The notes beneath the pieces were generated by a model, which was given only the letters and a program-made list of their open reading frames with translations, was not told the origin of the DNA and searched no databases. A stretch of DNA of 64,000 bases from Acrocarpospora catenulata (GTDB taxonomy: Bacteria; Actinomycetota; Actinomycetes; Streptosporangiales; Streptosporangiaceae), in assembly GCF_018476525.1 (NCBI RefSeq), contig NZ_JAHCST010000014.1, positions 1 through 64,000 of the forward strand. Reading direction: 5' to 3'. Below are positions 23,907 to 42,823 of the stretch, one piece after another; the stretch's first letter is position 1; every line of letters starts with the position of its first letter. The translations under genes and the position numbers were made by a program.

Positions 23907-23935
23907 TTGACGTTCTTGTCTCAAGTATACAGAAT
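23907..23935 (+). promoter_or_regulatory. Promoter of the P450 operon with operator copy A
   Basis: TTGACG (23907-23912) is followed after 17 bases by CAGAAT (23930-23935). The motif TGTCTCAAGTATACA (23917-23931) fills the spacer and enters the -10. It is a variant of the TGTATTCAAGATACA element seen at 26596, 31478 and near 41762. Binding would exclude polymerase. Confidence 0.6.
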
Positions 23936-23963
23936 TCAAAGCGCACGCCGGGAAAGGAACACT

Positions 23964-25205
23964 ATGTCTACTGAGACCGTGCCGGCCGCCGGGACCTACC
24001 CCAGCCCAAGGGACGCCCGTTGTCCCTATGAGCCGCCGAAGGCTTACACCGGCGGGCCCGAACAGCAGCCCGTACGGAAAATGCGGCTGTGGAACGGCGA
24101 CGAGGCGTGGGTGGTGGCCGGATACGAGGAGGGGCGCATGCTGCTCGGGGATCCCCGGGTGAGCGCGCGGCCCGACCTGCCTGGGTATCCGCACGTCAGC
24201 CCGGCTCTGGCCGGGTACCGCAAGAGCGGCCTGCAGACGTTCAACAACAAGGACAACCCAGAGCACAACGTCGAGCGACGCATGTTCACCAAGTGGTTCA
24301 CGGTGAAGCGGATGGAACGGCTGCGCCCGCGCATCCAGGACCTGGTGGACCAGGCGGTCGACCGGTTGGTGGCCATGGGCTCACCGGTGGACCTCGTCGA
24401 GCACTTCGCGCTGCCCATCCCCTCTCAGGTGATCTTCGAGCTGCTCAACGCGCCGTACCGGGACCACGAGATCGTCGAGCACGAGACGCACACGATGTTG
24501 TCGTGGCGCTCCTCGGCCGAGGAGTCACGGGCCGCCTCGCAGCGTCTTCTCGACTACTGCTACGGCCTCATCCGGGAACGCGCGGAGAACCCGCGGGCCG
24601 ACGACGTGCTGTCGCTGGCCATCTCCGAGCACGTCACGACCGGTCTGTGCACCATGGAGCAGCTGGCGGAGGGCACCCGCCTGCTGTTCCTGGCGGGTCA
24701 CGAGACGACGGCGAACTCGATCGCGATGTCGGTCCTGGCGCTCATCGACCACCCCGCCCAGCTCGCGGCGTTCCGCGACGCGCAGGACCCCAGGCAGGTC
24801 GCGCTGGCCGTCGACGAGCTGCTCCGCTTCGCGACGATCGCCCAGGCCGGCCGGTGCCGGGTCGCCCTCGACGACATCGAGGTCGGCGGCACGACGATCC
24901 GGGCGGGGGAGGGCATCGTGGTCTCCAGCGAGGCCGCCAACTGGGACCCCCGGGTCTTCGAGCGACCGGCCGAACTCCGCCTTGACCGGCCCAATGCCAG
25001 GGATCACGCCGGCTTCGGCCACGGCACCCACCGGTGCATCGGGGAGACCCTGGCGGAGATCGAGCTGCAGATCGTCCTCACCACCCTGTTCAGCCGGCTG
25101 CCTGACCTGCGCGTGGCCGTCCCGCGCGACCAACTGCGCTACAAGACCGACCACACGATCTTCGGCCTGTACGAGCTGCCGGTGACCTGGGGTGATCCGA
25201 AGTGA
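23964..25205 (+). CDS. Cytochrome P450 (bacterial class I)
   Basis: 413 residues from ATG at 23964 (GGAAAGGA upstream). Key motifs: I-helix LFLAGHETT (residues 242-249), ExxR at 285-288 and the heme loop FGHGTHRCIG with Cys358. A soluble monooxygenase that needs ferredoxin and reductase; the ferredoxin is the next gene (4-nt GTGA overlap), while no ferredoxin reductase is in the window. First gene of the P450-ferredoxin-acyl-CoA dehydrogenase unit and under operator copy A. The substrate is unknown; the context suggests hydroxylation of a branched or cyclic acid before CoA-dependent breakdown. Confidence 0.95.
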   Translation: MSTETVPAAGTYPSPRDARCPYEPPKAYTGGPEQQPVRKMRLWNGDEAWVVAGYEEGRMLLGDPRVSARPDLPGYPHVSPALAGYRKSGLQTFNNKDNPEHNVERRMFTKWFTVKRMERLRPRIQDLVDQAVDRLVAMGSPVDLVEHFALPIPSQVIFELLNAPYRDHEIVEHETHTMLSWRSSAEESRAASQRLLDYCYGLIRERAENPRADDVLSLAISEHVTTGLCTMEQLAEGTRLLFLAGHETTANSIAMSVLALIDHPAQLAAFRDAQDPRQVALAVDELLRFATIAQAGRCRVALDDIEVGGTTIRAGEGIVVSSEAANWDPRVFERPAELRLDRPNARDHAGFGHGTHRCIGETLAEIELQIVLTTLFSRLPDLRVAVPRDQLRYKTDHTIFGLYELPVTWGDPK

Positions 25206-25423
25206 GGTTCCAGCTCGGCACCGCCGGGGAGCTGACCGTCGACCGGTCCCTGTGCATCGGCAGCGGCCTGTGCGTCCTCACCGCCGGCGACGTCTTCGGC
25301 CAGGACGACGATGACGGCCTGGTGGAGGTGGCCGTCTCCGTGATCGATCCCGCGACCGCCGACGACGTGATCAAGGCAGCGGACGGTTGCCCGTCCCAGG
25401 CCCTGCGGTTCCTGGCGTCCTGA
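25202..25423 (+). CDS. [3Fe-4S]/[4Fe-4S] ferredoxin for the P450
   Basis: 73 residues, GTG start overlapping the P450 stop. Cysteine pattern C-x5-C (CIGSGLC at 18-24) and a third Cys in DGCPSQAL, with the usual second Cys of a 4Fe cluster missing, fits the 3Fe-4S ferredoxins that feed actinomycete P450s. Transfers electrons one at a time to the heme. Confidence 0.92.
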   Translation: MRFQLGTAGELTVDRSLCIGSGLCVLTAGDVFGQDDDDGLVEVAVSVIDPATADDVIKAADGCPSQALRFLAS

Positions 25424-25425
25424 CG

Positions 25426-26571
25426 ATGAGACGTACGATCTTCGGCACCGACCACGACGACTTCCGCGACATGGTCCGCTCCTTCGTCGCCACGTCCGTC
25501 GCCCCCCGGGTCGACGAGTTCGTCCAGGCCGGTGCCATCGCCCGCGAGGTGTGGCTGCGGGCGGGTGAGCTCGGGCTGCTCGGCCTGCACGTTCCCGAGC
25601 GGTACGGCGGGTCCGACGCGCCGGACTACCGGTTCATGGCCGTGGTCCTGGAAGAACTGTCCCGCGTGACGGTGGCCCTGGGTTCGGCGTACTCGATCCA
25701 CGCCGACATCGTGGCCCCCTACCTGCTGCACCTGACCACGCAGGAGCAGCGGGAGCGATGGCTGCCGGGTTTCTGCTCGGGCGAGATCCTGACCGCCATC
25801 GGGATGACCGAGCCGTCCGGCGGCTCCGACCTCGCGGCCCTGCGCACGCGTGCGGTCCGGGACGGGGACGGCTGGCGGCTCAACGGCTCGAAGACGTTCA
25901 TCACGAACGGGACGACCGCCGACCTGGTCGTGATCGCGGCCAGGACCAACCCGGCCGAGCGCAGCCGGGGCATCACGCTCTTCGGGGTCGAGGCCGCCAC
26001 TCCCGGCTTCACCCGGGGCCGGAAGCTGGACAAGGTCGGGCAGTCCGAGGCGGACACGGCCGAGCTCTACCTTCAGGACGCCTGGGTGCCGGACGGCAAC
26101 GTGATCGGCGCCGTCGACTCCGGCTTCCAGAGCATGATGGCCTGGCTGCCGCAGGAGCGGTTGTCGGCGGCGGTCGCCAACGTCGCCCATGCCGCGCAGC
26201 TGTTGGAGGAGACGATCGCCTATGTCAAGAACCGCCGGGCCTTCGGCCAGAGCGTCGGGTCCTTCCAGCACAACAAGTTCCTGATCGCCGACCTGGTCAC
26301 CCGGGTCGAGGCCACCCAGGCGTTCGTGGACCAGGCGATCATGGCCCACGTCCACGGCGAGCTGACGGCGGTGGCCGCGGCGAAGGTCAAATGGTGGTCG
26401 GCCCAGGTGCAGAACGAGGTACTCGACCATTGCCTCCAGCTGCACGGCGGGTACGGGTTCATGAACGAGTACCGCGTGGGACGCGCCTGGCGCGACGCGC
26501 GGGTGACCAAGATCTGGGCGGGCTCGAACGAGATCATGAAGGAAATCATCGGGCGAGACCTGGGTCTCTGA
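25426..26571 (+). CDS. Acyl-CoA dehydrogenase (LCAD-like)
   Basis: 381 residues, two bases after the ferredoxin stop. FAD-binding wording (AIGMTEPSGGSDLAA, GSKTFITNG) and C-terminal domain (RRAFGQSVGSFQHNKF, LQLHGGYGFMNEY) are intact. The end reads IWAGSNEIMKEII, without the YEG glutamate of MCAD, and a Glu pair occurs in LLEETIAYV as in long-chain/isovaleryl-type enzymes, where the base lies on that helix. It makes an alpha,beta-double bond in an acyl-CoA. Which acid it serves is not evident. Confidence 0.92.
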   Translation: MRRTIFGTDHDDFRDMVRSFVATSVAPRVDEFVQAGAIAREVWLRAGELGLLGLHVPERYGGSDAPDYRFMAVVLEELSRVTVALGSAYSIHADIVAPYLLHLTTQEQRERWLPGFCSGEILTAIGMTEPSGGSDLAALRTRAVRDGDGWRLNGSKTFITNGTTADLVVIAARTNPAERSRGITLFGVEAATPGFTRGRKLDKVGQSEADTAELYLQDAWVPDGNVIGAVDSGFQSMMAWLPQERLSAAVANVAHAAQLLEETIAYVKNRRAFGQSVGSFQHNKFLIADLVTRVEATQAFVDQAIMAHVHGELTAVAAAKVKWWSAQVQNEVLDHCLQLHGGYGFMNEYRVGRAWRDARVTKIWAGSNEIMKEIIGRDLGL

Positions 26572-26595
26572 GCGCCGTCCTTCACACACATGGTC

Positions 26596-26610
26596 TGTAT
26601 TCAAGATACA
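26596..26610. promoter_or_regulatory. Operator copy B, TGTATTCAAGATACA
   Basis: Arms TGTAT and ATACA are perfectly symmetric about TCAAG. It lies 35 bases before the GTG of the mutase S subunit gene, in the 59-base gap after the acyl-CoA dehydrogenase, so the mutase genes have their own regulated promoter. The TTGTATAC-like core is typical for FadR/FCD-type GntR regulators. Confidence 0.65.
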
Positions 26611-26630
26611 AGGCTTCGGAGGGAGTTGAA

Positions 26631-27098
26631 GTGGTGACAAGCGTCCTGAGGGGCGTCCGCGTGGTCGTCGGCTCGATCGGCGACGACATCCACGTCGTGG
26701 GCATCACGCTGCTGGGGCACGCCCTGCGCAACGCGGGCGCCGAGGTGATCCAGATGGGGATCCAGACCTCTCCCGAGGAGTTCGTCGCGGCCGCCGTGAC
26801 CGAGGACGCCGACGCCGTGTTCGTCTCCTCCAGCAACGGGCACGCGGGAATCTTCTGCCCCGAACTGGTGGCAGGACTCCGCCAGGCGCAGGCCGACCCG
26901 ATCCTGTACGTCGGCGGCAACCTGTCGGTCAGCGCCGCCACGCCCTGGCACGAGGTGCGCCAACGCTTCGAGGAGATGGGCTTCGACCGGGTCTATCCGC
27001 CACGCACGCTCCCCGACCAGGCCGTCCAGGATCTGGCGGCCGACCTGCGGGCACGCGGGAACGCCGGCCTGCCGGAGCCGGGGAGCCAGGATGCCTGA
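26631..27098 (+). CDS. Cobalamin-binding mutase S subunit (glutamate-mutase-like)
   Basis: 155 residues from GTG at 26631 with GGAGGGAG five bases upstream. The B12-binding signature DxHxxG is present (residues 19-24, DIHVVG), with the later VSSSNGHAG, YVGGN and FDRVYPP motifs of the glutamate mutase sigma subunit. It carries adenosylcobalamin with the His replacing the dimethylbenzimidazole ligand. Overlaps the E subunit gene by 8 bases. No reactivating protein (MutL-like) is nearby. Confidence 0.92.
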   Translation: MVTSVLRGVRVVVGSIGDDIHVVGITLLGHALRNAGAEVIQMGIQTSPEEFVAAAVTEDADAVFVSSSNGHAGIFCPELVAGLRQAQADPILYVGGNLSVSAATPWHEVRQRFEEMGFDRVYPPRTLPDQAVQDLAADLRARGNAGLPEPGSQDA

Positions 27099-28566
27099 CC
27101 AGCCCTCCAACGACATGCTCGACCTGGAGGAGTTCCAGGCGCAGCGCGCGTCCCTGTTCCGCCGCCAGCTCGGCCGCGAGCCGTACGACCTGGCGGAGGC
27201 CTGGGAGTTCGCGCGGCCCAACGCCGAGCGCCGCGGCATGGCCGCGACCCTCGCCCGGGCCAAGTCCGCGGGGGAGACGGTGGTCATCCCCCGCGCGGGT
27301 GTCGCCCACTGGGACGCCCAGCTTGAGCTGATGCGCACGCTGTCGGCGGCGGGCGCGGGCGTCGTCCCGATCACGGTCGACAGCCTGACCCGCTCCCTGA
27401 GGTTCGAGGACGCGGCCAAGGCCCTGGCCCAGAGCACGCCCGACCGCTCCGTCCTCAACGGATATCCGCTCGTGGCCCACGGAGTCGAACGGACGCGGGA
27501 GCTGATCTCCGCCGTCGATCGGCCGGTCATCGTACGCGCCAACGCCATCGACCTGCGGATCGTGGCCGAGACCGCGTTCGCCTCGGGGGCGACGGGATTC
27601 GTGTCCGGCCCGATGTACGCGACCCTGGAGTACTCCAAGCTGGGCTCCCTCGCGGAGTCCATCCCGAACTGGCAGTTCATCTTCCGGCTGATGGGCGAGT
27701 ACGCCGCCCACGGCGTCCCCATCGTCGAGGACGCGATCGGTTTCGCGCAGAGCGGGACCTGCTCGGTGCCCGCCCTGATGCACGTCGGAGTCGTCCTGGA
27801 CGCGCTGATCATGGCCGGGCAGGGCGTGAAGCACATCGTCCCGTACCAGATGCTCCAGGGCCATGTGGCCCAGGACGTGGCCGGCTGCATCGCGGTGGGC
27901 ACGCTGACCGACGAGTACCTGGCGAAGCTGGGCTTCGGGGACGTGCGGACCTACGTGGCCAGCAGCGACTGGAACGGTGCCTTCCCCGCCCGCGAGCCCG
28001 ACGCCTACGGCCTGCTCGCGGCCAACGTGTTCGCCTGCGCGATCGCCCGCACGCCCGTCAACTACGTGAAGACGATCGAGGAGGGCATCGGCGTGCCGAC
28101 CGCGGCGGCCAACGCCGCCAGCATCCGGTTCACCCGTTACCTGTCCCACCTGATCTCCCGGCAGGCCGCCTCGCTGATCTCCCCTGAGGTCGAGTTCGAG
28201 CTCGAACTGAATCTGATGGAGGCGCGCGCGATCCTGGACGCGGTCCTGGACATGGGGGACGGCGACCCGGTCCGCGGGTCGATCTCCGCCCTGGCGGCCG
28301 GCGTGCTGGACATTCCGTTCTCGCCGAACGTGCACGTGCGCGGGAACGTCCTGCCCGTCCGCGACGCCGACGGCGCGGTGCGTTTCCTCGATCGCGGCGC
28401 GCTCCCGCTGCCCGCCGCCGCGCTGCGGCTGGAAGCCGAGCGGCTCGCCTCCCGCCGCGCGCGCAGCGGCTCCGGCGAGCTGTCCTACCAAGACGTGATC
28501 GACGACCTGTCCTTCCTCGAATTCGAGGAGCCGACCCTGCCAGAAGGCGGTGACCCCCATTCCTGA
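27091..28566 (+). CDS. Glutamate-mutase-like catalytic E subunit
   Basis: 491 residues, close to the 483 of the clostridial enzyme. TIM-barrel wording matches through the length: VIPRAGVA, LNGYP, IVEDAIGF, GIGVPTAAANAA, VLDIPFSPN, VLPVRDxxGxVRFLxRGxLPL, VIDDLSF. The three arginines that grip dicarboxylate substrates appear kept (Arg68, Arg101, Arg149). The residue aligned with Glu171, which in the clostridial enzyme pairs with the substrate amino group, is Val171, and the His after Arg149 is Ala. The likely reaction is a radical carbon-skeleton rearrangement of a dicarboxylate that is not an amino acid. The alignment is from memory. Confidence 0.88.
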   Translation: MPDQPSNDMLDLEEFQAQRASLFRRQLGREPYDLAEAWEFARPNAERRGMAATLARAKSAGETVVIPRAGVAHWDAQLELMRTLSAAGAGVVPITVDSLTRSLRFEDAAKALAQSTPDRSVLNGYPLVAHGVERTRELISAVDRPVIVRANAIDLRIVAETAFASGATGFVSGPMYATLEYSKLGSLAESIPNWQFIFRLMGEYAAHGVPIVEDAIGFAQSGTCSVPALMHVGVVLDALIMAGQGVKHIVPYQMLQGHVAQDVAGCIAVGTLTDEYLAKLGFGDVRTYVASSDWNGAFPAREPDAYGLLAANVFACAIARTPVNYVKTIEEGIGVPTAAANAASIRFTRYLSHLISRQAASLISPEVEFELELNLMEARAILDAVLDMGDGDPVRGSISALAAGVLDIPFSPNVHVRGNVLPVRDADGAVRFLDRGALPLPAAALRLEAERLASRRARSGSGELSYQDVIDDLSFLEFEEPTLPEGGDPHS

Positions 28567-29320
28567 CCTGAGTTCCTGGTCGACCTCGATCACCGACGTC
28601 GAGAACAGTTCGATTCGCTACCGCGGTGTCCCCATCGAGGAACTGATCGACGACGGTGACCTGGCGGCCACACTGTGGCTGGTGCTGTTCGGGGGAACGC
28701 CCGACACCGGCTCCGCCGACGCGCTCCGCCGCGCCCTCATCGCGGCCCTGGACCACGGGGTCTCGGCCCCGTCCACGCTGGTCGCGCGGGTGACCGCCTC
28801 GACCAGGTCGGCGGTGCCTTTCGCGGTGGCCGGCGGCCTGATGGCCTTCGGCGGTCCTGCGCACGGCGGCGCGGCCGAAGGGGCGGCCAACCTGTTCGCC
28901 GAGATCGCGGCCTTGGACGACCACGAGGCCGGCGCCCGCGGTGTGGTGCGGCGGCTGCTGGAGCGCGGGGAGCGCTTTCCCGGGTACGGGCACCCCTACC
29001 ACTCGCGGGACCCGCGGGTTCCCGGCCTGCTGGGCGGCGTGACCGAGGACCGGACCCACCGGCGGATCGCCCGGCTCTGCGAGACGGCGCTGCGCGAGCA
29101 GTCGGGGCGTGACCTGCGGATGAACGCCGACGCGGCGGTGGCCGCGCTGCTGCTGGACGCCGGGCTCGGCACCGCCGACATCACCCTGGTCACCGGGCTG
29201 GGCCGGGCCTTCGGGCTGGCCGCGCACGCCCGGGAGGAGCTGATGGGGGAGAAGCCCTTCCGCGCCCCGTCCCTGGACACGGTCCGTTTCGTGTCACCCG
29301 CCAAGCAAGAGGAAGCGTAG
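28550..29320 (+). CDS. Citryl-CoA lyase-like protein (citrate synthase superfamily)
   Basis: 256 residues, GTG start inside the mutase gene (17-base overlap). This is the short form of the citrate synthase fold, the size of citryl-CoA lyase and of the C-terminal ATP-citrate lyase module; true citrate synthases are ~370-430. The catalytic triad is in place: His105 (GGPAHGGA), His148 (GYGHPYH) and Asp194 (RMNADAAVA). It should cleave a 3-hydroxyacyl-CoA of the citryl/malyl/citramalyl kind to an acyl-CoA and an oxo acid. Paired with the synthetase subunits that follow. Confidence 0.85.
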   Translation: MTPIPDLSSWSTSITDVENSSIRYRGVPIEELIDDGDLAATLWLVLFGGTPDTGSADALRRALIAALDHGVSAPSTLVARVTASTRSAVPFAVAGGLMAFGGPAHGGAAEGAANLFAEIAALDDHEAGARGVVRRLLERGERFPGYGHPYHSRDPRVPGLLGGVTEDRTHRRIARLCETALREQSGRDLRMNADAAVAALLLDAGLGTADITLVTGLGRAFGLAAHAREELMGEKPFRAPSLDTVRFVSPAKQEEA

Positions 29321-29322
29321 CG

Positions 29323-30522
29323 ATGACGAAGTTGCTCGAATACCAGGTGAAGGAGATCCTCCGCGAGGAAGGGATCGCGACGCCACCCGGGCTGTTGTGC
29401 CGTTCGGCGGCCGAGGCCCGGGAGGCGGCGGCGCAGCTGGGCGGCCGGGTGTTCGTGAAGGCGCAGGTCGCGGCCGGGGACCGGGCGGCGGCGGGCGGGG
29501 TGCGGTCGGGCGCGGACCCGGCGCAGGCCGAGGCGATCGCCGCCGAGCTGCTGGCGGCCACCATCCAGGGGATGCCGGTCGAGGCCGTGCTGGTGGAGGC
29601 CGGCATCCAGGCCGAGTGGGAGGGGTACGCGAGCGTCTCGATCGTGGAGGGCCCTGCGCGCCGGGTGCTGCGCTTCTCCCGCTCGGGCGGGACCGGGTTC
29701 GACCCGGCGCGGGCGGCCTTCCAGCTGGAGTTCGACGCGCATCTCGAACCTCATGTGATCCGGCGGGAGCTGCGGCGTACCGGCCTGGCCTCGCAGGAGC
29801 TGCTGGAGGTGACGCGGACGCTGTCGGCGATGGTCCGGTGCGTGGCGCGCTGGTCGGCCTATGTCCTGGAGCTGAACCCGATCGCGCTGACCGCGCAGGG
29901 CCTGGTGGCGCTGGACGGCAAGGCCGACATCGACGACTACTCCAAGGCGCTGATCCCGGACGCGGCCTACCTGGAGGCGGTGGAGACCGACCCGCGCGAG
30001 CGCCTGGCCCGGGAGTTCCAGTCCCGTGACCACCGGGGCAGCTTCCGCTACGTACAGTTGCTACCCGAAGGGGCGACGGCCGCGGGTCGGCCCCGGGTCG
30101 GCTCGCATTCGGTCGGCGGGGGCGAGTCGATGGTCGTTCTGGACGCCCTGGCCGCGGTGGAGCTCGCGCCCACCAACTACTGCGACACCTCGGGATCCCC
30201 GTCCGCCGAGAAGGTCGCGGCGGCGGCCGAGCTGGTGGCGGGCCAGCCGCACATCGAGGGCGTGCTGTTCTCGACCTGCATCGCCAACCAGCCGCTGGCG
30301 ACGACGGCGCACGGGCTGGTCGACGGCTGGGAACGCGCCGGTTGGCGAGGGCCCAGCGTGGTGCGCTTCGCGGGCAACCAGTCGGAACAGGCGCGGGAGA
30401 TCGTCGCGCGGTGGGGCGAGGGCCGCGTGGACCGGCTCCGCGTCGTCGGTGAGGAAACCGACGAATGGACGGCGGCGCGGATGCTGCGTGACCTGATCGA
30501 AAGCGAGGAGCAGGGCCGATGA
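29323..30522 (+). CDS. Acyl-CoA synthetase beta subunit, citryl-CoA synthetase/ATP-citrate lyase-like
   Basis: 399 residues. ATP-grasp domain (LLEYQVKEILREEGI, VFVKAQV, LELNPIAL with Asn185, LDGKADIDD with Asp198) then a CoA-ligase domain. At residues 284-294 it reads TNYCDTSGSPS and at 320-322 IAN followed by TTAHG. These resemble the ATP-citrate lyase/citryl-CoA synthetase wording (NYxEYSGxPS; IANFxxVAxTxxG) more than the NIFGGI loop of succinyl-CoA synthetase. It forms a CoA ester of a di- or tricarboxylic acid together with the next gene. Starts two bases after the lyase stop. Confidence 0.85.
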   Translation: MTKLLEYQVKEILREEGIATPPGLLCRSAAEAREAAAQLGGRVFVKAQVAAGDRAAAGGVRSGADPAQAEAIAAELLAATIQGMPVEAVLVEAGIQAEWEGYASVSIVEGPARRVLRFSRSGGTGFDPARAAFQLEFDAHLEPHVIRRELRRTGLASQELLEVTRTLSAMVRCVARWSAYVLELNPIALTAQGLVALDGKADIDDYSKALIPDAAYLEAVETDPRERLAREFQSRDHRGSFRYVQLLPEGATAAGRPRVGSHSVGGGESMVVLDALAAVELAPTNYCDTSGSPSAEKVAAAAELVAGQPHIEGVLFSTCIANQPLATTAHGLVDGWERAGWRGPSVVRFAGNQSEQAREIVARWGEGRVDRLRVVGEETDEWTAARMLRDLIESEEQGR

Positions 30523-31476: not shown

Positions 31477-31505
31477 TTGTATTCAAGATACTGAATCCGT
31501 ATATT
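31477..31505 (+). promoter_or_regulatory. Promoter of the ABC-transporter operon with operator copy C
   Basis: TTGTAT (31477-31482), 17 bases, TATATT (31500-31505). The operator TGTATTCAAGATACT (31478-31492) shares 14 of 15 bases with copy B and covers the -35 box. The preceding 31392-31470 holds GC-rich inverted repeats that may end the upstream operon. Confidence 0.65.
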
Positions 31506-31563
31506 CCTGATTGGCTGACTACGGTCACTCCACATCCCGGGCAGGACGAGGAAAGGGGTGGGC

Positions 31564-34975: not shown

Positions 34976-35051
34976 CCGCGGCGCTCGAATCGATCTTTCG
35001 GGGAAAGGCACGGGCTCGGACGCCCACGTCCGGGAGAACCAAAGGAGAGTC

Positions 35052-36257
35052 ATGCGTAGGAAGTTCGCGGTTGTGGCCGCCGTCCTCTCAGTGTCGACGG
35101 CCGCCGCCTGTGGCTCGGACGGGGGAACGAGCGCCGGCGACGATCATGTGATCGAAATCGGGGCGGTGCTGTCCCTGACCGGCCCCTTCGCCGCCCAGGG
35201 CGAGGCCCACCTGGGCAGCATCAAGCTGGGGATCGACCAGGTGACCAAGGCCGGTGGCATCACCGTCAACGGCCAGAAGTACACCTTCACCGTGACGGCC
35301 AAGGACTCGGCCAGCGACCCCGCCAAGGCGACCGCGGGCGTCCTGGGCATGATCCGCGACGAGGGCGTCAAGTTCCTGATCGGCCCGGCCGACACCCCGT
35401 CGGTGGTCGCGGCGGAGTCCGTGGTCACCAAGCAGAACGTGCTGTGGCTGGCCGGGTCCACCTTCATCTCCGGCCGGCTGGAGGAGAAGGCCGGGGACCC
35501 GGCCTTCGCCAAGGTCTTCGGTACGAACCCGAGCGCGGCCACGGTGTTCCCGGCGGCCGTGAACGGGGCGATGCAGTACCAGCCCGACACCAAGACGGCC
35601 GCGATCGTGTGGCCGTCCGGGGCCGCCTCCGACCCCTACGTCGAGCTGATCGAGAAGGCCTTCACCGCCAAGGGGGTGCAGGTGGTGGAGAAGCTGCGGT
35701 TCGACATCGCCAGCACCGACTTCTCCGGCATCCTCACCAAGCTCAAGTCGTCCAAGCCGGACATCGTGTTCACCGGCACCACCAGCGGGGCCGTCCAGGC
35801 CTTCGCCTCCCAGGCCGTGCAGCTCGGCAGCCCGTTCGGGAGCATGATCGTCCTGGGGGCGACCGCCGGGACCGGGCTGACCGGCGACAACGGCAAACCG
35901 CTGCCCTTCCCGTACATGTACATCATGAACCGCGGCCTGGACCCGTACACCGGCAACCCGGACGTCGCCCAGCTGTTCCAGCAGTACGAGCAGGTCAACG
36001 GCAAGCAGCCGGCCCTGGACGCGCAGCTGTACGCGACGGAGTTCACCTCCTCGATCAACGCGCTGGCCAAGGCCATCGAGCAGGCGGGGACCGTCGACGA
36101 CCCCGACGCGGTGGCCAAGGCGCTCAAGACGGTCAGCGTCAACGCCGGAAACGGCGAGGTCTCCTTCGCCCAGAACGGGGTCCTGCAGGCGCCCATCGCG
36201 GTCTGCGAACTCCGCGCCGGCAACGGGACCTGCAAGCTGGTCACGCCCGGACAATGA
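35052..36257 (+). CDS. ABC transporter substrate-binding lipoprotein (Leu/Ile/Val-binding type)
   Basis: 401 residues; AAAGGAGAG before ATG at 35052. Signal with lipobox-like AAAC near residue 20, then VIEIGAVLSLTGPFAAQGEAH, the entry motif of LivJ/amide-binding receptors, and GPADTPSVVAAESV. Family ligands range from amino acids to amides, aromatic acids and dicarboxylates. The neighbours make a carboxylic acid more likely than an amino acid. A 76-base gap separates it from livF. Confidence 0.9.
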   Translation: MRRKFAVVAAVLSVSTAAACGSDGGTSAGDDHVIEIGAVLSLTGPFAAQGEAHLGSIKLGIDQVTKAGGITVNGQKYTFTVTAKDSASDPAKATAGVLGMIRDEGVKFLIGPADTPSVVAAESVVTKQNVLWLAGSTFISGRLEEKAGDPAFAKVFGTNPSAATVFPAAVNGAMQYQPDTKTAAIVWPSGAASDPYVELIEKAFTAKGVQVVEKLRFDIASTDFSGILTKLKSSKPDIVFTGTTSGAVQAFASQAVQLGSPFGSMIVLGATAGTGLTGDNGKPLPFPYMYIMNRGLDPYTGNPDVAQLFQQYEQVNGKQPALDAQLYATEFTSSINALAKAIEQAGTVDDPDAVAKALKTVSVNAGNGEVSFAQNGVLQAPIAVCELRAGNGTCKLVTPGQ

Positions 36258-36273
36258 ATCGGCAGGAGCGGAG

Positions 36274-37086
36274 ATGAGGTTCGAGCCCAAGGTGGACGGC
36301 GTCGCGATCGTGACCGGCGCGGGGTCCAGCGGACCGGGCTTCGGCACCGGCAAGGCCAGCGCGGTGCTGCTGGCCAGGTCCGGGTGCGGTGTGGTCGTGC
36401 TGGACAGTGTGGCGGAGCGGGCCAGGGAGACGGTCGAGCTCATCGAGTCTGAGGGCGGTCGCGCGGTCGGCTGTGTGGGCGATGTCCGCGACCCGGCCCT
36501 CGCCCAGCGTGCCGTCGACGCCGCGGTGGACACGTTCGGGAAGCTCACGACCCTGGTCAACAACGTCGGCGTCTTCCGTTCCGGCACGCTCGCGGCCATG
36601 ACCGACGAGGACCTGGAGCTTCAGCTGGGCGTCAACCTCAAGGGGATGCTCTTCCTGACCCGGGCCGCGGTGCCGGCCATGGCCGCCGCGGGCGGCGGCT
36701 CGGTGGTGAACATCAGCTCGATCGCCGCCCATCGCGGGGTCTCGAGTTCGGGCACCGTCGCCTACACCGCCTCCAAGGGCGCCATCGAGGCGGTGGCCAC
36801 CGTCCTGGCCGCCGAGCTCGGGCCCCAGGGCATCCGGGTCAACACCGTGGTGCCGGGTACGCTCAACACTCCGCTGCTGCAGCTGACCCTCACCCCGGAG
36901 CAGATCGCCGATCGCCAGCGCACCGCCCCGCTGGGGCCGGGCGGCGACGCCTGGGACGTGGCCAGGGCCGTGGTCTTCCTCGCCAGCCCGTGGGCCCGCT
37001 GGGTCTCGGGCGCGGTCATCCCGGTGGACGGCGGATTCCTGACGACCTCACCGGCGATGTTCACCGGCGCGGTCGACACGAATTGA
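36274..37086 (+). CDS. SDR-family oxidoreductase
   Basis: 270 residues. Cofactor loop VTGAGSSGPGFGTGKA is longer than the usual TGxxxGIG by a few residues. Catalytic Ser in ISSIAAHRG and YTASKGA (Tyr-x3-Lys) present; VDGGF at the end. Probably oxidises a secondary alcohol made by the P450 or from the substrate. Sixteen bases after the receptor gene, so in the same operon. Confidence 0.9.
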   Translation: MRFEPKVDGVAIVTGAGSSGPGFGTGKASAVLLARSGCGVVVLDSVAERARETVELIESEGGRAVGCVGDVRDPALAQRAVDAAVDTFGKLTTLVNNVGVFRSGTLAAMTDEDLELQLGVNLKGMLFLTRAAVPAMAAAGGGSVVNISSIAAHRGVSSSGTVAYTASKGAIEAVATVLAAELGPQGIRVNTVVPGTLNTPLLQLTLTPEQIADRQRTAPLGPGGDAWDVARAVVFLASPWARWVSGAVIPVDGGFLTTSPAMFTGAVDTN

Positions 37087-37112
37087 GCCCCTTGACGAAG
37101 AAAGGCTTCGAG

Positions 37113-38195
37113 ATGAAGTTCGCATTGTTCCAATCGCCGCACACGCCGCCCGAGCGCACGCCCCGCGAGGTGTACGACTGGGTCGTCGGCCAGGCCATCG
37201 TGGCCGACCAGGCCGGCCTCACCGAGTACTGGGTGGGTGAACACGCGACGGTGGCCTGGGAGCCGGTGCCGAACCCGGAGATCGTCCTGGCCGCCGCCGC
37301 GGCGCAGACCGAGCGCATCAAGCTCTGCCCGGGAGCCCACCTGCTGCCCTACCACCACCCCGCGTCCCTGGCCGTGCAGGTGGCGTGGCTGACGCACCTG
37401 GCCGAGGGCCGCTACATCCTCGGGGTCGGCGCCGGCGCCTACCCGTCGGACGCCGCGCTGCGCGGCATCACCGACATGCGGGGCAACCACGAGATGGTGG
37501 TGGAGGCTCTGGAGATCATGGAAAAGGTGTGGGCGTCCGAGCCGTTCCACCACGAGGGCAGGTTCTGGAAGGCGGGCTATCCGGAGACCAAGGAGGGACA
37601 GCTCCCGCTCCGCGACGTCCGGCCGTACGGCGGCAAGGTCGAGATCGCGATGGCCGGCACGAGCTCGCCGTCCAAGTCCCTGGCGTTCGCGGGCTCGCGC
37701 GGCTACATCCCGCTGTCGGTCTTCTCCGGCAACGAGCGGGTCGCGCAGCACTGGGCCACCTTCTCCGAGGCCGCCGAGGCGGCCGGTCACCCGGTCGACC
37801 GGTCCATGCTGCGGGTGCAGCGCGACGTCTTCGTGGCCGAGACGGACAAGGAGGCGCGCAAGTGGGCCATCGAGGGCGGCCTGGGCTACGCGTGGAGCCA
37901 GATCCTCCTTCCGCACTTCAAGCGGCTGGGGCTGCTGGAGGGCCTGGTGCCGGGCGTGGCCGACCCCCTCAGCGTGGACCTGGACTACCTCGCCGACCAC
38001 GTCTGGATCGTCGGATCCCCCGACACCGTGGCCGAGAAGCTGGCCGCCTGCCTGGAGGAGAGCGGCGGGTGGGGCACCACCCTCGTCCCCGGGCACAACT
38101 ACGCCGCCAACCCGGAGCCCTGGAACGAGTCGCTCCGGCTGATGGCCGCGGAGGTGGCCCCGAGGCTGAAGAAGCTCGCCCCGGCCGCCGACTGA
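37113..38195 (+). CDS. LLM-class flavin-dependent oxidoreductase
   Basis: 360 residues from ATG at 37113 (AAAGG eight bases upstream). MKFALFQSPHTPPERTPREVYDW, EYWVGEHATVAWEPVPNPEI, YILGVGAGAYPSDAALRG and AMAGTSSPSKSLAFAGSRG show the luciferase/limonene-monooxygenase-like class. A flavin reductase-like gene follows two genes later, so this may be the oxygenase of a two-component Baeyer-Villiger or dealkylating system. Confidence 0.88.
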   Translation: MKFALFQSPHTPPERTPREVYDWVVGQAIVADQAGLTEYWVGEHATVAWEPVPNPEIVLAAAAAQTERIKLCPGAHLLPYHHPASLAVQVAWLTHLAEGRYILGVGAGAYPSDAALRGITDMRGNHEMVVEALEIMEKVWASEPFHHEGRFWKAGYPETKEGQLPLRDVRPYGGKVEIAMAGTSSPSKSLAFAGSRGYIPLSVFSGNERVAQHWATFSEAAEAAGHPVDRSMLRVQRDVFVAETDKEARKWAIEGGLGYAWSQILLPHFKRLGLLEGLVPGVADPLSVDLDYLADHVWIVGSPDTVAEKLAACLEESGGWGTTLVPGHNYAANPEPWNESLRLMAAEVAPRLKKLAPAAD

Positions 38196-38228: not shown

Positions 38229-38606
38229 ATGACCCAAGAGGAACTGTTGGCCGTGGCCGACGCGTACGTGGAGTGCTACAACTCCGACGACCTCGTCACG
38301 ATGAAGACGCTGATGAGCGAGGACGTCGAGGTCACCCACCACAACCGGGGGGTGCACCGGATCGGCAGGGACATCGTCTTCGCCGGCAAGGCGGGCGCCG
38401 CGGCCGTCATCCCCGACAAGCACTTCCGCGATCGCCGGCGCATCGTCGCCTTCGACGACGTGGTCCTCATCGAACACACCTGGGCGGCCACCGCCAAGGC
38501 TGACATGCCCGGCTTCGCCAAGGCGGGCGAGTCGATCGAGCTCGAACTCTGCACCGTCATGACCATCCGGGACGGCAAGATCGTCAAGTACGACGACTAC
38601 GGGTGA
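38229..38606 (+). CDS. SnoaL-like (NTF2-fold) protein
   Basis: 125 residues. VADAYVECYNSDDLVTMKTLMSEDVEVTHHNR is the standard opening of the NTF2/SnoaL fold and VMTIRDGKIVKYDDYG its end. Members act as small isomerases, cyclases or hydrolases, or are catalytically silent. Thirty-three bases after the LLM gene. A terminator hairpin follows. Confidence 0.85.
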   Translation: MTQEELLAVADAYVECYNSDDLVTMKTLMSEDVEVTHHNRGVHRIGRDIVFAGKAGAAAVIPDKHFRDRRRIVAFDDVVLIEHTWAATAKADMPGFAKAGESIELELCTVMTIRDGKIVKYDDYG

Positions 38607-38637
38607 GCACCACGAGGTCCCCGGTGACTCCCGATGA

Positions 38638-38676: not shown

Positions 38677-38709
38677 GCGAAAGCGTGGTCAGTGAGGAGA
38701 GGTGCAACG

Positions 38710-39894
38710 ATGACCATCGATGGTCCCGCATACCGGCGGGCGCTGGGGCGGCACCCGACCGGAGTGGCCCTGGTGACGGCCCTGGACGCCGCCGGAGACC
38801 CGGTCGGCATGATCGTCGGGACGTTCTCGTCGGTCTCCCTGGATCCGCCGCTGGTGAGCTTCATGCCCGACCGCTCGTCCACCAGCTTCCCGAAGATCAG
38901 GGAGGCGGCGCGTTTCGCGGTCAACGTGCTGAGCTCCGAGCAGGCCGAGGTGTGCCGCTCCTTCGCGGCCCGGCACCCGGACCGCTGGGATCGCATCGCC
39001 TGGCGGCCCACGCCGGGCGGCGCCCCGTCGCTTCCCGACGCGCTGCTCTGGGTCGAGTGCGAGCCGCACGCGATCCACGAGGCGGGGGACCACTACATCG
39101 TGATCGGCCGGGTCACGGCGCTGGGCGAGGGCATCGACGCTCCGCCCCTGGTGTTCTTCCGCGGCGGCTACGGGCAGTTCACCCCGGCCTCCCTCGTGCT
39201 CGCCCCCGAGATCGACCTGCTGCCCCAGATTCGGCTCGCCGACCTGGCCAGGGCGGAGATGGAACAGATCGCGCAGCGCACGGGCCTGGAGTGTGTCGCG
39301 CAGGCGCTGCTGGGCGACGAGCTTGTCTTCATCGCCAGCGCGGGCGTCAGCCCGCACGGCCACGCGCCCACCCGGGTGGGGTTGCGCATCCCGCTGATCC
39401 CGCCGCGAGGAGGTCTGTTCGCCGCCTGGCAACCTCCGGAGCACGTGCGGTGGAGTCGCAGGTTCCGGCACGTGGGCGAGACACCGGCAGGCTGGTCCCG
39501 CATGCTCCACCGCATCAGGGAGCGCGGCTGGTCGATCTGGCTGGCCGACGACTCGGCCGAGCTCGACCGGCTGTTCGACGCGGCCTCCGGCGGCGAGATC
39601 ACGACCGATCTGGTGGAGCGGGTGTCCCAGGCGATCGACAAGCTCGCGGCGTCCGTCGAACCGGCCGACCTCGACCCCGGGGAACGGTGCGCGGTGCGCT
39701 TCCTCGGCGCCCCGGTCTTCGGGACCGACGGCAGGGTCCAGCTCGCCCTCCGGCTCCTGGGTCTGCCGCCCGAGATGTCCTGGGCGCACATGCGGGACCT
39801 GGCCGCGCAGCTGGTGGCGGGCGCCGATCGTGTCACGCGGCTGCTGGGCGTCGATCCGGATGCCTGCCGTGCGCGCGACGCCGTCTCGGCCTGA
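38710..39894 (+). CDS. Flavin reductase domain fused to an IclR-type effector domain
   Basis: 394 residues; GAGGAGAGG upstream of ATG at 38710. Residues ~8-160 are a flavin reductase-like FMN-binding split barrel (HPTGVALVTAL, GMIVGTFSSVSLDPPLVSFMPDRSSTSFPKIR, FAVNVLS). Residues ~190-390 read GLECVAQALLGDELVFIASAG, RVGLRIPLIPPRGGLFAAWQPPE, the wording of an IclR ligand-binding domain, without any DNA-binding helix. It may supply reduced flavin to the LLM enzyme and be gated by a metabolite. Confidence 0.8.
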   Translation: MTIDGPAYRRALGRHPTGVALVTALDAAGDPVGMIVGTFSSVSLDPPLVSFMPDRSSTSFPKIREAARFAVNVLSSEQAEVCRSFAARHPDRWDRIAWRPTPGGAPSLPDALLWVECEPHAIHEAGDHYIVIGRVTALGEGIDAPPLVFFRGGYGQFTPASLVLAPEIDLLPQIRLADLARAEMEQIAQRTGLECVAQALLGDELVFIASAGVSPHGHAPTRVGLRIPLIPPRGGLFAAWQPPEHVRWSRRFRHVGETPAGWSRMLHRIRERGWSIWLADDSAELDRLFDAASGGEITTDLVERVSQAIDKLAASVEPADLDPGERCAVRFLGAPVFGTDGRVQLALRLLGLPPEMSWAHMRDLAAQLVAGADRVTRLLGVDPDACRARDAVSA

Positions 39895-39897
39895 CCG

Positions 39898-41028
39898 ATG
39901 CGGCGCGCCTGCGGGGTCGCCGTCCTCGTCGTCGCCGCGATCGCCGTCGACATCGCGACGGTCCTGCTGGTCGCGCTGCTGGGGGTCGTCGGGCATGAGC
40001 TGGGCTGGCTGGTCGGCGTGGCCGTGGCCGTGTACTTCCTGGGCGGGAGTCTCGCCGCGGCCGTGCTGGGCAGGCGGCTGGAGGCCCTCGGGCCGCGCCG
40101 GGTCGCGTCGGCGGCCGCCACCGGCAGCGCGGTGGCACTGCTCGCCGTCGCGCTGGCCGGCCAGTGGCCGCCCGTCCTGCTGCTGGCCAGCGGCTTTTCG
40201 GGAGCCGCCTTCGGGCTCACGCTCCCCTCGACCAACGCGGTCCTGGACGGGGTGGTCGCCCCCCGGCGGCTGGTGGTGGTGCTCTGCGTCAAGCAGGCCG
40301 CCATCCCGATCGGGCTCATGACCTCGGCCTATCTGGGCACCGCCGCGAGCGGAATCAGCTGGCGGGTCCCTTTCGCCGTCGCCGCGGCGGGGGCACTGGC
40401 CGCCGTCGCAGGCTTCCGCGCCGCGCTCCGGCGACCGGTGCCACATTCCCACACGGCCGGGGCCGGGCCGCCGGCCGGGCCCTTGCGACCCGGCCTGGCC
40501 ACGCTCGGCTGGCTGACGCTGCTGGCGTCGTTCCTGCCCGGAGCGCTGACCGGGTACGCCTTCGCCGCGCTCGTGGCCGCCGGCTTCGCGGCCCAGCACG
40601 CGGCACACCTGCTCATCGCGGCCAACCTTCTCGGCATCGCCTCGCGGATCGTCTCCGGGCTCTTGGCGCAGACGCGCCCGGAGCGTACGGACCTGGTGAT
40701 GGCCGGCATGATCCTGACCGGGGGAGGGGGCGCCTTGCTCCTGGCCGTGGGGCAGGCGGCCACCTCGGCGCTGGGGATCCTGGTCGCCTTCACCTTCGGC
40801 TGGGGATGGTCGGGGCTGATGTTCGCCGGCGCGATCCGCAGAGGACTCGGGCGTCCGGCCCGGGCGGGCGCGGTCGTCCAGTCCGGCGGGATGCTCGGCT
40901 CCGCCGCCGGGCCGCTGGTGATGGCCGCCGCCGGCAGTGTCGACGAGCCGCGGCTCGGGTGGCTGCTGGTCGGCGGCCTGGCCGTCGCCGCCGGAGGCGT
41001 GCTCTGCTGGAGCCTGCGTGCCCGGTGA
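39898..41028 (+). CDS. MFS transporter
   Basis: 376 residues with 10-12 hydrophobic helices. GLTLPSTNAVLDGVVAPRRL and GSAAGPLVMAA are MFS-like. Starts 3 bases after the flavin reductase gene. Could export an end product or import the substrate. Its stop lies three bases from the end of the convergent GntR gene. Confidence 0.85.
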   Translation: MRRACGVAVLVVAAIAVDIATVLLVALLGVVGHELGWLVGVAVAVYFLGGSLAAAVLGRRLEALGPRRVASAAATGSAVALLAVALAGQWPPVLLLASGFSGAAFGLTLPSTNAVLDGVVAPRRLVVVLCVKQAAIPIGLMTSAYLGTAASGISWRVPFAVAAAGALAAVAGFRAALRRPVPHSHTAGAGPPAGPLRPGLATLGWLTLLASFLPGALTGYAFAALVAAGFAAQHAAHLLIAANLLGIASRIVSGLLAQTRPERTDLVMAGMILTGGGGALLLAVGQAATSALGILVAFTFGWGWSGLMFAGAIRRGLGRPARAGAVVQSGGMLGSAAGPLVMAAAGSVDEPRLGWLLVGGLAVAAGGVLCWSLRAR

Positions 41029-41031
41029 CGG

Positions 41032-41709
41032 TCAGGACGCCTTGGTGTCCTCAAGCAGGTCGATTCCCCTGAGGATGGAGTCGAGGGACGCGTTGATCAT
41101 TTTTCGGGTCAGTTTCAGGACATGCTCGGTGTCGCGGTCCCGGATGGCGGCGAGCAACTGTTCGTGGTTGGCGAGGGAGTTGGTGAGATGCGCGGCGTTC
41201 TGTACGGCGATGTACCTGAAGCGAAGGGTGCGCCGCCAGAGGCCTTCCACGAGTTCGACCAGCACCTTGTTGGGGCAGGCCCGGTCGATGACGCCGCGGA
41301 ACTCGCCCACCAGTTGCAGGTAGGCGTAGGTGTCCGCCTCGGCGGCCGCGGCCCGCATCTGCCGGAGGACCTCCGCCAGCCGGAGGGTGTCGGCCTCGGT
41401 GATCTGCGGCATGGCCAGCCTGACGCACTCGATCTGGACGAGTTCCCGGCAGGCGTACAGGGCGGCCGCGTCCGTTTTGCTGGGCGGGGCGACCGCGGCC
41501 CCTCGGCGGGGCTCGATGTGCAGCAGCCCGTCGGCCGCGAGTTTCCGGATCGCCTCACGGAGCGGGGACCGGCTGACGCCCAGCCGTTCGCAGAGTTCGA
41601 TCTCGTACAGGCGTTGCCCGGGCCGCAGCTCGCCTCGCACGATCATTTCGACCAGCCGGTCCATCACGGCGGCGTGCAGCAGCGGAACGTTGAGCGCGTT
41701 CGCTCCCAT
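41032..41709 (-). CDS. GntR-family regulator, FCD effector type
   Basis: 225 residues. N-terminal winged helix (IVRGELRPGQRLYEIELCERLGVSRSPLREAIRKLAADGLL) and FCD domain (YACRELVQIECVRLA, ...EFRGVIDRA, NHEQLLAAI with metal-binding His). Such proteins are carboxylate-responsive repressors. It sits at the end of the region-5 cluster, divergent from the quinone-oxidoreductase-like gene, with a partial operator copy in between. It is the best candidate for the factor that binds copies A-D. Confidence 0.92.
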   Translation of the reverse strand: MGANALNVPLLHAAVMDRLVEMIVRGELRPGQRLYEIELCERLGVSRSPLREAIRKLAADGLLHIEPRRGAAVAPPSKTDAAALYACRELVQIECVRLAMPQITEADTLRLAEVLRQMRAAAAEADTYAYLQLVGEFRGVIDRACPNKVLVELVEGLWRRTLRFRYIAVQNAAHLTNSLANHEQLLAAIRDRDTEHVLKLTRKMINASLDSILRGIDLLEDTKAS

Positions 41710-41754
41710 GGGTCGCTCTCCTGTCGAACATCGACGCGTATATGCTTTGATTAT

Positions 41755-41776
41755 TGTATACTGAGTTCAAGATAGT
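41755..41776. promoter_or_regulatory. Operator copy D between the GntR gene and its divergent neighbour
   Basis: TGTATAC (41755-41761) followed by TGAGTTCAAGATAGT (41762-41776). The second part matches copy B at 11 of 15 bases, including TTCAAGATA; the first supplies another TGTAT half-site. TTGATT (41747-41752) with GATAGT (41771-41776) could be the + promoter, which would put transcription start almost at the ATG at 41786. Confidence 0.55.
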
Positions 41777-41785
41777 GGCGGGACG

Positions 41786-42823
41786 ATGGATCGAATTCCC
41801 GATGGCCAGAGCGAAGCGACCGAGCTACGGCTGCGTGCCTACCCGAGGGACACTCTCCATGAGGAAGACTTCGAGTTCCATCGTGCGCCGGTGCCTCGCT
41901 CCCTGGAAGCCGGGGAACTCCTGCTGGCCAACTCATGGCTGTCCCTCGACGCGTCGGCTCGCCTTCGCATGCGCGAGTCGGACTCGCCGTACATGCCGAG
42001 GATCACACTGGGCGCGCCGATCAGTGGTTTCGCCCTGGGGCGCGTCCTGTCGTCGCGCCGCCCGGGCTTCGCCGAGGGCGATCTGGTGCTGCACAGCTCC
42101 GGATGGCGCACGCACGCGGTGATCCGGGCCGACGAGACCGGCTGGCGGGGCCCGCACCGGATCGCCGAGGAGCCGGGCCTGCCCGAGGCCGCCTACCTCA
42201 CCGCTCTGGGTCCCGCCGGGCTGACGGCGTACGTCGGGATGGTCAAACTCCTGGATCCGCGCCCCGGCGAGGTCGTCTACGTCTCCGCCGCCGGAGGCGG
42301 TATCGGCAGCCTCGCGGTGCAACTCGCGAAGTTCGCGGGCGCGCGGGTGGTGGCCAGCGCGGGCAGCGCCGAGAAGCGGGACTTCGTCCTGGGGCTGGGG
42401 GCGGACGTGGCACTCGACAGACGCGCTCCCGACCTGTCCGCGGCGCTCAAGGCCGCGGCTCCCGACGGCATCCACGGATACTTCGACTGCGTGGGAGGAC
42501 CGGAACTCGAAGCGGCGATCGACAACGCCCGGCCCCGCGCCCGCATCGTCATGTGCGGAACGGTGTCGAACTACGACACCCAGTCGGCTTCGGCCCCGCG
42601 CAACCTGTTCGACATCGTCGCCAAGGAACTGTCCGTGCAGGGTTACCTGACCAGGTCCTACGCCGAACTCCTGCCCACCGTCCAGGCGGAGATGGCCAAA
42701 CTGGTCCGCGACGGACGCCTGCGGGATCGGGTCACCATCCTGATGGGCATCGACAGTGTGCCTCGCGCCTTCGTGAGCCTGTTCCGGGGGGAACACATCG
42801 GGAAGCTGTTGATCCAAGTCTGA
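41786..42823 (+). CDS. NADPH-dependent MDR oxidoreductase (CurA/quinone oxidoreductase-like)
   Basis: 345 residues. Zinc-free MDR: YVSAAGGGIGSLAVQLAKFAGARVVASAGSAEK is the NADPH-binding core, GPAGLTAYVGM the substrate-side loop, and GYFDCVGGPELEAAI follows. Members reduce double bonds of enones or 2-alkenals. The N-terminus (RLRAYPRDTLHEEDFEF) is typical for this branch. Single gene under operator copy D, ended by a strong bidirectional terminator. Confidence 0.88.
   Translation: MDRIPDGQSEATELRLRAYPRDTLHEEDFEFHRAPVPRSLEAGELLLANSWLSLDASARLRMRESDSPYMPRITLGAPISGFALGRVLSSRRPGFAEGDLVLHSSGWRTHAVIRADETGWRGPHRIAEEPGLPEAAYLTALGPAGLTAYVGMVKLLDPRPGEVVYVSAAGGGIGSLAVQLAKFAGARVVASAGSAEKRDFVLGLGADVALDRRAPDLSAALKAAAPDGIHGYFDCVGGPELEAAIDNARPRARIVMCGTVSNYDTQSASAPRNLFDIVAKELSVQGYLTRSYAELLPTVQAEMAKLVRDGRLRDRVTILMGIDSVPRAFVSLFRGEHIGKLLIQV

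Follow-up and report, generated by a model that had tools for sequence, protein, structure and literature searches.

The window analyzed here is a stretch of 64,000 nucleotides from the soil actinomycete Acrocarpospora catenulata (Streptosporangiaceae; contig NZ_JAHCST010000014.1, positions 1 to 64,000), whose genome of 10.29 Mb is 98% complete. It contains a core of six genes (25426-31391) that encode an acyl-coenzyme A (CoA) dehydrogenase, the MutS and MutE subunits of a B12-dependent mutase, a protein resembling citryl-CoA lyase, and both subunits (beta, then alpha) of a CoA ligase. We consider it probable that this core is a catabolic module for a dicarboxylate that bears a hydroxyl and no amine, and that the mutase, ligase and lyase act on it in sequence. 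The core suggests an undescribed breakdown route for nitrogen-free branched acids, and there is a fair chance that the mutase catalyzes a new B12 reaction. To our knowledge, few kinds of B12 carbon-skeleton mutase are known, namely glutamate mutase, 2-methyleneglutarate mutase and several acyl-CoA mutases. A more specific proposal is put forward only tentatively. It is that an adenosylcobalamin mutase acts on tertiary hydroxy-dicarboxylates (2-hydroxy-2-methylglutarate to 2,3-dimethylmalate) together with a dedicated citryl-CoA-type ligase and lyase, and that the three form a general route around the tertiary alcohols that block beta-oxidation, serving as the lower pathway of cyclic-terpenoid breakdown in some actinomycetes.

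All core genes lie on the forward strand. The acyl-CoA dehydrogenase (25426-26571, likely start ATG 25426) was assigned by family match, and its catalytic Glu presumably occupies the LCAD/IVD-type position, as judged by eye. It is followed by the MutS-like B12-binding sigma subunit (26634-27098, alternative start 26631; PF02310), the MutE-like epsilon subunit (27091-28566; PF06368), the citryl-CoA-lyase-like protein (28550-29320; PF00285, the citrate-synthase C-terminal domain), the ATP-grasp ligase beta subunit (29323-30522) and the ligase alpha subunit (30519-31391). The two ligase subunits match the ATP-grasp_2/CoA_binding families of the SucC and SucD types. An earlier note on this DNA had named these genes along with a cytochrome P450, an importer and further oxidative enzymes, and all of them are present with open frames that match their named families. 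Its start for the P450 (TTG 23907) is replaced here by the likelier ATG 23964, and MutS starts at GTG 26631 or 26634. The short overlaps that it described as coupling the genes are found at P450/ferredoxin (4 bases), MutS/MutE (8), MutE/lyase (17), ligase beta/alpha (4) and the two junctions of LivHM, LivG and LivF (4 and 4). They are not found at every junction, and gaps lie ahead of MutS (about 60 bases) and LivHM (166 bases).

The core is conserved beyond its genus. MutE proteins more than 60% identical to that of the window occur in five genomes from three actinomycete orders: the window's own, A. macrocephala (G217), A. pleiomorpha (G692), and two genomes, G972 and G1239, from one further order each. 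The order MutS-MutE-lyase-ligase beta-ligase alpha is the same in all five. Identities of these proteins to the window, in that order, are 68, 65, 64, 58, and 67% in G972 and 68, 70, 58, 58, and 67% in G1239. The acyl-CoA dehydrogenase gene lies just upstream in each of the four genomes whose contig extends that far, one copy being truncated, and the G972 orthologue (63%) occupies the same place as that of the window. Between Acrocarpospora species the ratio of nonsynonymous to synonymous substitution rates (Ka/Ks) lies at 0.12-0.31 across the five genes, in keeping with purifying selection. A five-gene order kept across three orders at 58-70% identity, taken with these ratios, is more than chance would be expected to give. 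Directly after the module, G972 carries a TetR gene and then a gene for a MeaB-type mutase chaperone. MeaB is described in an extract of PMC10481361 as helping to load the B12 cofactor into methylmalonyl-CoA mutase.

The core module is rare among the genomes searched. In the window's order, 2 of 297 genomes (the window's own and one congener) have a MutE above 60% identity. A draw from the phylum gave 1 of 396 (the window's own), a draw from the class 2 of 394 (the window's own and G972), and draws from two other orders 1 of 166 and 1 of 267; these draws overlap one another. Judged by the lyase gene, three of five Acrocarpospora genomes have the set, and the other two (G063 and G145) lack a MutE match as well. 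The plasmid collection holds no close copy, the best matches being 34.8% for MutE and 32.3% for ligase beta. A scan of named genomes found only two other Acrocarpospora; it relied on exact matches to short peptides and could overlook relatives at 66-70% identity, such as G972 and G1239. The earlier note had proposed co-occurrence of the five genes as a check and rarity as a ground for refutation. The genes do stand together outside the genus and in three orders, and the set is rare.

MutS retains the motif GDDIHVVG, which is the DxHxxG of a B12-binding sigma subunit, and scores 143.6 bits on NF002612 (cut-off 110) but 127.6 on TIGR01501 (cut-off 135.8). MutE scores 324.2 bits, below its NCBIfam equivalog cut-off of 390.1. 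We aligned five module MutE sequences, three of them from one genus, with 57 canonical ones, which include the crystal-structure sequence beginning at residue 10. The carboxylate claw (R66, R100, R149) is kept in all five module sequences, as are Y181, G68, N123, K326, and E330, of which we take K326 and E330 to be adenosyl-site residues. Four replacements, E171V, Y177A, H150A, and M294N, are fixed in the module (5/5) and absent from the canonical sequences (0/57); the window's protein has V171, A177, A150, N151, and N294. At positions 150, 171, 172, 177, 180, 214, 223, 225, and 294 all 57 canonical sequences agree and all five module sequences differ. At the 18 positions where the module clade leaves the canonical residue, no Arg or Lys is gained. 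A FastTree phylogeny of 64 MutE sequences unites the five in a single long-branched clade (support 1.0). According to an extract of PMC10947579, R66 and R149 of glutamate mutase hold the glycyl half of the substrate; its acrylate half lies with R100 and Y177, its amine is liganded by E171, and G68 and N123 belong to the adenosyl site. The substrate of the module mutase is probably a dicarboxylate without an amino group, because the claw is kept and the amine ligand E171 is lost. The simplest reading of the pocket is a substrate that lacks an amine and carries, besides its two carboxylates, a substituent that is larger or less polar. The smaller side chains point to a bigger or tertiary substrate.

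For this comparison, L002, L033, and L035 were dropped as second copies, and A. pleiomorpha was read as L034. Eight of the 29 plasmid records matched for MutE were read and used, and MutE matches from the genome draws that had been given no locus are outside the alignment. Two homologues with a changed claw, L040 and L053, were kept apart from the canonical set; neither keeps E171 or Y177, and both belong to other variants. L053, from Fusobacterium vincentii, has Y66, K149, D171, and H177, unlike canonical glutamate mutase. In G660, which belongs to another family of the phylum, a pair of MutE- and MutS-like genes (L091:7531-8949 and 9056-9451, both on the forward strand) has Q66, N149, N171, and E177 in its MutE-like protein, with claw and amine site changed and K326/E330 kept, and is possibly a further mutase specificity. 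A Roseibium aggregatum plasmid carries an unusually long MutE gene, of about 660 residues (L051:4518-6512); its neighbors encode an aromatic amino acid lyase and a racemase, and a gene for amino acid adenylation is nearby.

The lyase and ligase have features of the citryl-CoA type, as the earlier note had proposed. The lyase aligns with citryl-CoA lyase, its best PDB match, over residues 10-246 of 256 (102 bits), and most of its PDB matches are citrate synthases. It retains the catalytic His, His, and Asp of citrate synthase together with the arginines of its DPR and GR motifs, both in the window and in G972. We take these arginines to correspond to the carboxylate/oxaloacetate sites of citrate synthase. 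The best NCBIfam score of the lyase is 146.2 bits (curated cut-off 245), and it and both ligase subunits fall below the curated cut-offs of every NCBIfam model listed for them. Over its whole length, ligase beta is closest to a succinyl-CoA synthetase (123 bits), then to citryl-CoA synthetase (87) and another succinyl-CoA synthetase (83). It has in common with citryl-CoA synthetase a DHRG insertion, GGGxS, GxPxA followed by E/K and K, and xAN. The insertion and the GGGxS, GxPxA, and xAN motifs were not seen in the two succinyl-CoA synthetases compared, the comparison consisting of one partial CcsA and two SucC sequences. These stretches presumably line the acid site. The phospho-His motif is present in ligase alpha.

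We infer substrate, direction and products as follows. In the first step, the adenosylcobalamin-dependent MutS/MutE would act on a 2-hydroxy-2-X-glutarate, a substrate suggested by the active site, and shift the C(OH)(X)COO- group to the neighboring carbon to give a 3-methyl-2-X-malate (HOOC-C(OH)(X)-CH2-CH2-COOH to HOOC-C(OH)(X)-CH(CH3)-COOH). The hydroxyl would thereby move from gamma to beta relative to the other carboxylate, which is the arrangement that a citrate-type retro-Claisen lyase needs after CoA activation. The two-subunit ligase would then form the CoA thioester with ATP, and the lyase would split the C-C bond to yield an acyl-CoA (propionyl-CoA in the unsubstituted case) and a 2-oxo acid X-CO-COO-. 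The acyl-CoA dehydrogenase would probably act on the acyl-CoA produced or on a precursor. Loss of Y177 may leave room for a substituted acrylate half and hence for a longer acyl-CoA, which would give the dehydrogenase a role. Tertiary hydroxy acids are the kind of substrate that we favor; 2-hydroxy-2-methylglutarate, for example, would yield propionyl-CoA and pyruvate. They are favored because a tertiary alcohol cannot be oxidized, so that a mutase would be chemically needed.

The genes around the core in Acrocarpospora suggest where such an acid might come from. Upstream are a CYP105-like cytochrome P450 (23964-25205; best PDB match CYP105Q4, 336 bits) and a single-cluster ferredoxin (25202-25423; PF13370). 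Downstream are the importer genes, for a fused LivH-LivM permease (31558-33513), the ATPases LivG (33510-34256) and LivF (34253-34975) and a LivK-type binding protein (35049-36257). These are followed by a short-chain dehydrogenase/reductase (SDR; 36274-37086), a luciferase-like monooxygenase (LLM) of probable Baeyer-Villiger type (37110-38195; PF00296), a SnoaL/NTF2-like protein (38229-38606) and a flavin reductase (38692-39894; PF01613). The Liv, SDR and SnoaL/NTF2-like assignments are family matches, and all of these genes are on the forward strand. The LLM scores 354 bits against 3,6-diketocamphane 1,6-monooxygenase (4uwm), and the next solved structure scores 70 bits. A flavin reductase gene lies near it, and this and the sequence closeness fit a diketocamphane-type Baeyer-Villiger monooxygenase. 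The LLM is also 58% identical to a protein in a Rhodococcus pyridinivorans cluster with genes for a P450, an FAD-dependent oxidoreductase, a flavodoxin, an NTF2-like protein and a flavin reductase. Taken together, the P450, SDR, LLM and flavin reductase look like enzymes for the oxidation of a cyclic terpenoid or alicyclic ketone, and they resemble routes by which bicyclic terpenoids are oxidized. The upper pathway would thus consist of the P450, the SDR and the LLM Baeyer-Villiger monooxygenase with its flavin reductase. Camphor, cineole, and 2-methylisoborneol are our assumed candidate substrates, and it could not be decided among them. The source genome encodes three more diketocamphane-type LLMs (L100, L101, and L102; contigs C171 and C13) at 54-57% identity to that of the window.

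Operator-like sites may connect these genes with the core. The site GTATACAGAATTCAA lies upstream of the P450 (23925-23939), the 14-mer TGTATTCAAGATAC upstream of mutS (26596-26609) and again upstream of the importer operon (31478-31491), and GTATACTGAGTTCAA, which has a single mismatch relative to the site ahead of the P450, between the gntR and MDR genes (41756-41770), all four on the forward strand. The gaps before MutS and before LivHM thus carry the same 14-base site. With up to two mismatches, TGTATTCAAGATAC occurs at only these two places in the available genome sequence; with up to three, it has four matches in the window vs 0.25 expected. The pattern for the P450 site was derived from GTATACAGAATTCAA itself and has zero mismatches there by construction. 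All four sites are present in A. macrocephala, where the P450 site is identical. A. pleiomorpha has those ahead of the P450 (its last base changed), mutS and the importer, and the fourth falls outside the locus read. The GntR/FCD protein (41032-41709, reverse strand, by family match) is likely to read these sites, and in Acrocarpospora one GntR-type regulator probably couples the core module to the upper pathway. The idea of one regulated block is thus upheld in that the P450, mutase and importer units have related sites, and fails in that there are several promoter regions and not one transcript.

Several observations weigh against this account as a whole or against parts of it. In the stretches of G972 and G1239 that were read, nothing beside the core matches the P450, the ferredoxin or the importer, and these contigs hold only distant or unmatched LLM, SnoaL-type and SDR genes. 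The link to terpenoids therefore holds for one genus only. The P450 was rejected as a member of the conserved core, as no match was found in the 31 kb of G972 read or the 15 kb contig of G1239. G972 and G1239 instead share an aldehyde dehydrogenase (59%) and an SDR (62%); they also have in common an enoyl-CoA-hydratase-like gene (46%). The aldehyde dehydrogenase and the hydratase-like gene have no match in the window at 1e-15, and the window matches the shared SDR at only 34-37%. There is no evident reason for a terpenoid to be taken up by a Liv-type importer. Both operator patterns were written from the sites after these had been seen, and one match to TGTATTCAAGATAC with three mismatches, at 21984, lies outside the locus. 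MutS passes one curated glutamate-mutase cut-off (that of NF002612), and A. pleiomorpha has a methylaspartate ammonia-lyase, on another contig. The acyl-CoA dehydrogenase of A. macrocephala (L031/L035) lacks residues 153-339 and its reading frame shifts, which is either decay or an assembly fault. Because the lost Y177 contacts the acrylate half, an acyl product other than propionyl-CoA could be formed, and a propionyl-CoA scheme does not explain the acyl-CoA dehydrogenase. Finally, acetone-carboxylase-like genes lie near the G972 core, and a ketone could be released rather than a 2-oxo acid.

Among other explanations, the earlier note had offered the sub-case in which X is H: 3-methylmalate would arise from 2-hydroxyglutarate and be split into propionyl-CoA and glyoxylate. 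The kept claw and lost amine ligand of MutE would suit this substrate as well. Glutamate mutase slowly converts L-2-hydroxyglutarate to threo-3-methylmalate, and methylaspartate-type operons end with a comparable lyase step. However, 2-hydroxyglutarate is readily oxidized to 2-oxoglutarate, which leaves little point in a mutase route, and Y177A together with H150A suggests more space than a hydroxyl requires. We therefore regard it as an unlikely substrate and do not favor it as the example. A second scheme would have the mutase interconvert homocitrate and 2-methylcitrate by the same 1,2-shift, after which ligase and lyase would release propionyl-CoA and oxaloacetate. The ligase motifs, the citryl-CoA lyase match and the kept lyase arginines, which we assume to hold oxaloacetate, are compatible with it, but MutE gained no Arg or Lys at any of its 18 departed positions. 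No homocitrate-forming gene was noticed in the locus, where none was searched for specifically, and we give this scheme a slim chance. Equally doubtful is a module running in reverse, in which lyase and ligase build a branched hydroxy acid that the mutase linearizes. All three reactions are reversible in principle and the prevalence of citrate synthases among the PDB matches of the lyase would fit, but the importer, FCD regulator and monooxygenases look catabolic, the ligase is ATP-dependent, and other lineages have an aldehyde dehydrogenase and SDR.

Release of a ketone would result if the substrate were a tertiary dimethylcarbinol acid such as 4-hydroxy-4-methylpentanoate, which would be split to acetone and propionyl-CoA. 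Dimethylcarbinols can form in terpenoid breakdown, and the acetone-carboxylase-like genes close to the G972 core would have a place. Those genes are unmatched among the frames of the G1239 contig or the window, however, and all five sequences retain R66 and R149, the upper-claw arginines that bind the migrating group through its carboxylate; the lyase arginines are kept as well, and we judge this substrate very unlikely. The genes in question lie at about 18431-22736 on the reverse strand of L103 (G972), where a hydantoinase-B-like gene has an acetone-carboxylase gamma match and stands beside a long frame that is hydantoinase-A-like by eye. Lastly, an ordinary glutamate mutase supplying 3-methylaspartate, for macrolactam antibiotic biosynthesis or in glutamate catabolism, would agree with the MutS/MutE family membership and the NF002612 score, and such mutases exist in actinomycetes (PMC11284099, in extract), but it is highly improbable and was rejected for antibiotic biosynthesis, as E171 (V in 5/5 module sequences, E in 57/57 canonical ones) and Y177 are replaced in every module sequence, MutE is under its equivalog cut-off, no ammonia-lyase lies beside it, and the ligase and lyase would have no role.

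We thus prefer a module for an amine-free hydroxy-dicarboxylate. Compared with the earlier note, the proposal of a new pathway is strengthened by synteny across orders, the altered mutase site and the related operator-like sites, and a different kind of substrate is favored. If the proposal is correct, a natural branch of glutamate mutases with another residue in place of the amine ligand would represent a new reaction and reveal the way in which radical mutases evolve their specificity. It would also explain chemically how bacteria overcome the tertiary hydroxyls that form when branched cyclic compounds are broken down.

The flavin reductase (38692-39894) has 400 residues; its extra C-terminal part, perhaps an effector-sensing domain, resembles IclR_C weakly, with a score of 20.4 bits that is below the cut-off. 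A transporter of the major facilitator superfamily (39898-41028, forward strand, by family match) precedes the regulator gene. A medium-chain dehydrogenase/reductase (MDR)-type reductase (41786-42823, forward strand) has curcumin reductase as its nearest NCBIfam model, below cut-off. Downstream of the locus, a large regulator with BTAD, NB-ARC, and TPR domains is encoded on the reverse strand (45479-48487).

The module can be compared with several known systems. The methylaspartate pathway consists of glutamate mutase, ammonia-lyase, mesaconase, and citramalate lyase or a CoA-transferase with a CoA-ester lyase. It follows the same logic as the module with different genes, in that the branched product of a B12 mutase, a dicarboxylate, is later cleaved. 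In contrast to that pathway, the module has no ammonia-lyase at its locus and its mutase has lost the amine ligand. An ATP-dependent ligase takes the place of the CoA-transferase, and the lyase belongs to the citrate-synthase family, whereas that of the pathway belongs to the CoA-ester-lyase family, which we take to be CitE. In Rhizobium sullae and Gemmobacter fulvus, the genes after canonical MutS/MutE encode methylaspartate ammonia-lyase, a CoA-transferase, and a CoA-ester lyase. Genome searches for methylaspartate ammonia-lyase gave 21.9 bits in the source genome (cut-off 27) and no match in G217. The A. pleiomorpha match scores 319 bits and lies on contig C108 (L088/L090); a canonical mutase beside it was rejected, as no MutE match occurs in the 17.9 of 25.5 kb read. 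Related methylaspartate-type clusters are described in an extract of PMC4682846.

No description of a glutamate or methylaspartate mutase paired with a citryl-CoA lyase was found in the literature searched, which mostly left out subscription papers. Among the papers listed by a wider search and by one of the methyleneglutarate-mutase and dimethylmalate literature, covered by title and the start of the abstract, none was recognized as the pathway of the window. The ligase and lyase taken alone resemble citryl-CoA synthetase and citryl-CoA lyase, presumably of the Hydrogenobacter type from the reductive tricarboxylic acid cycle, in having a two-subunit ligase, a separate lyase of the citrate-synthase family, the shared motifs and the catalytic triad. 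The window pair differs in that its partners are a B12 mutase and an acyl-CoA dehydrogenase and its host is an actinomycete. PRK06224-type lyases of Proteobacteria are of the same family as that of the window (30-39% identity in four regions). In all four regions read, from 40 plasmid records matched, the lyase gene adjoins a CoA-transferase gene and a transporter lies near. A CoA-transferase thus stands where the window has a ligase, and no such mutase is annotated in the four regions. Activation followed by cleavage may be the usual setting of these lyases. Oxidation routes of cyclic terpenoids, the upper pathways of camphor and cineole, are described in an extract of PMC4097962. The upper genes of the window resemble them in comprising a P450, an alcohol dehydrogenase, an LLM Baeyer-Villiger monooxygenase and a flavin reductase, and differ from them in sharing operator-like sites with a mutase module.

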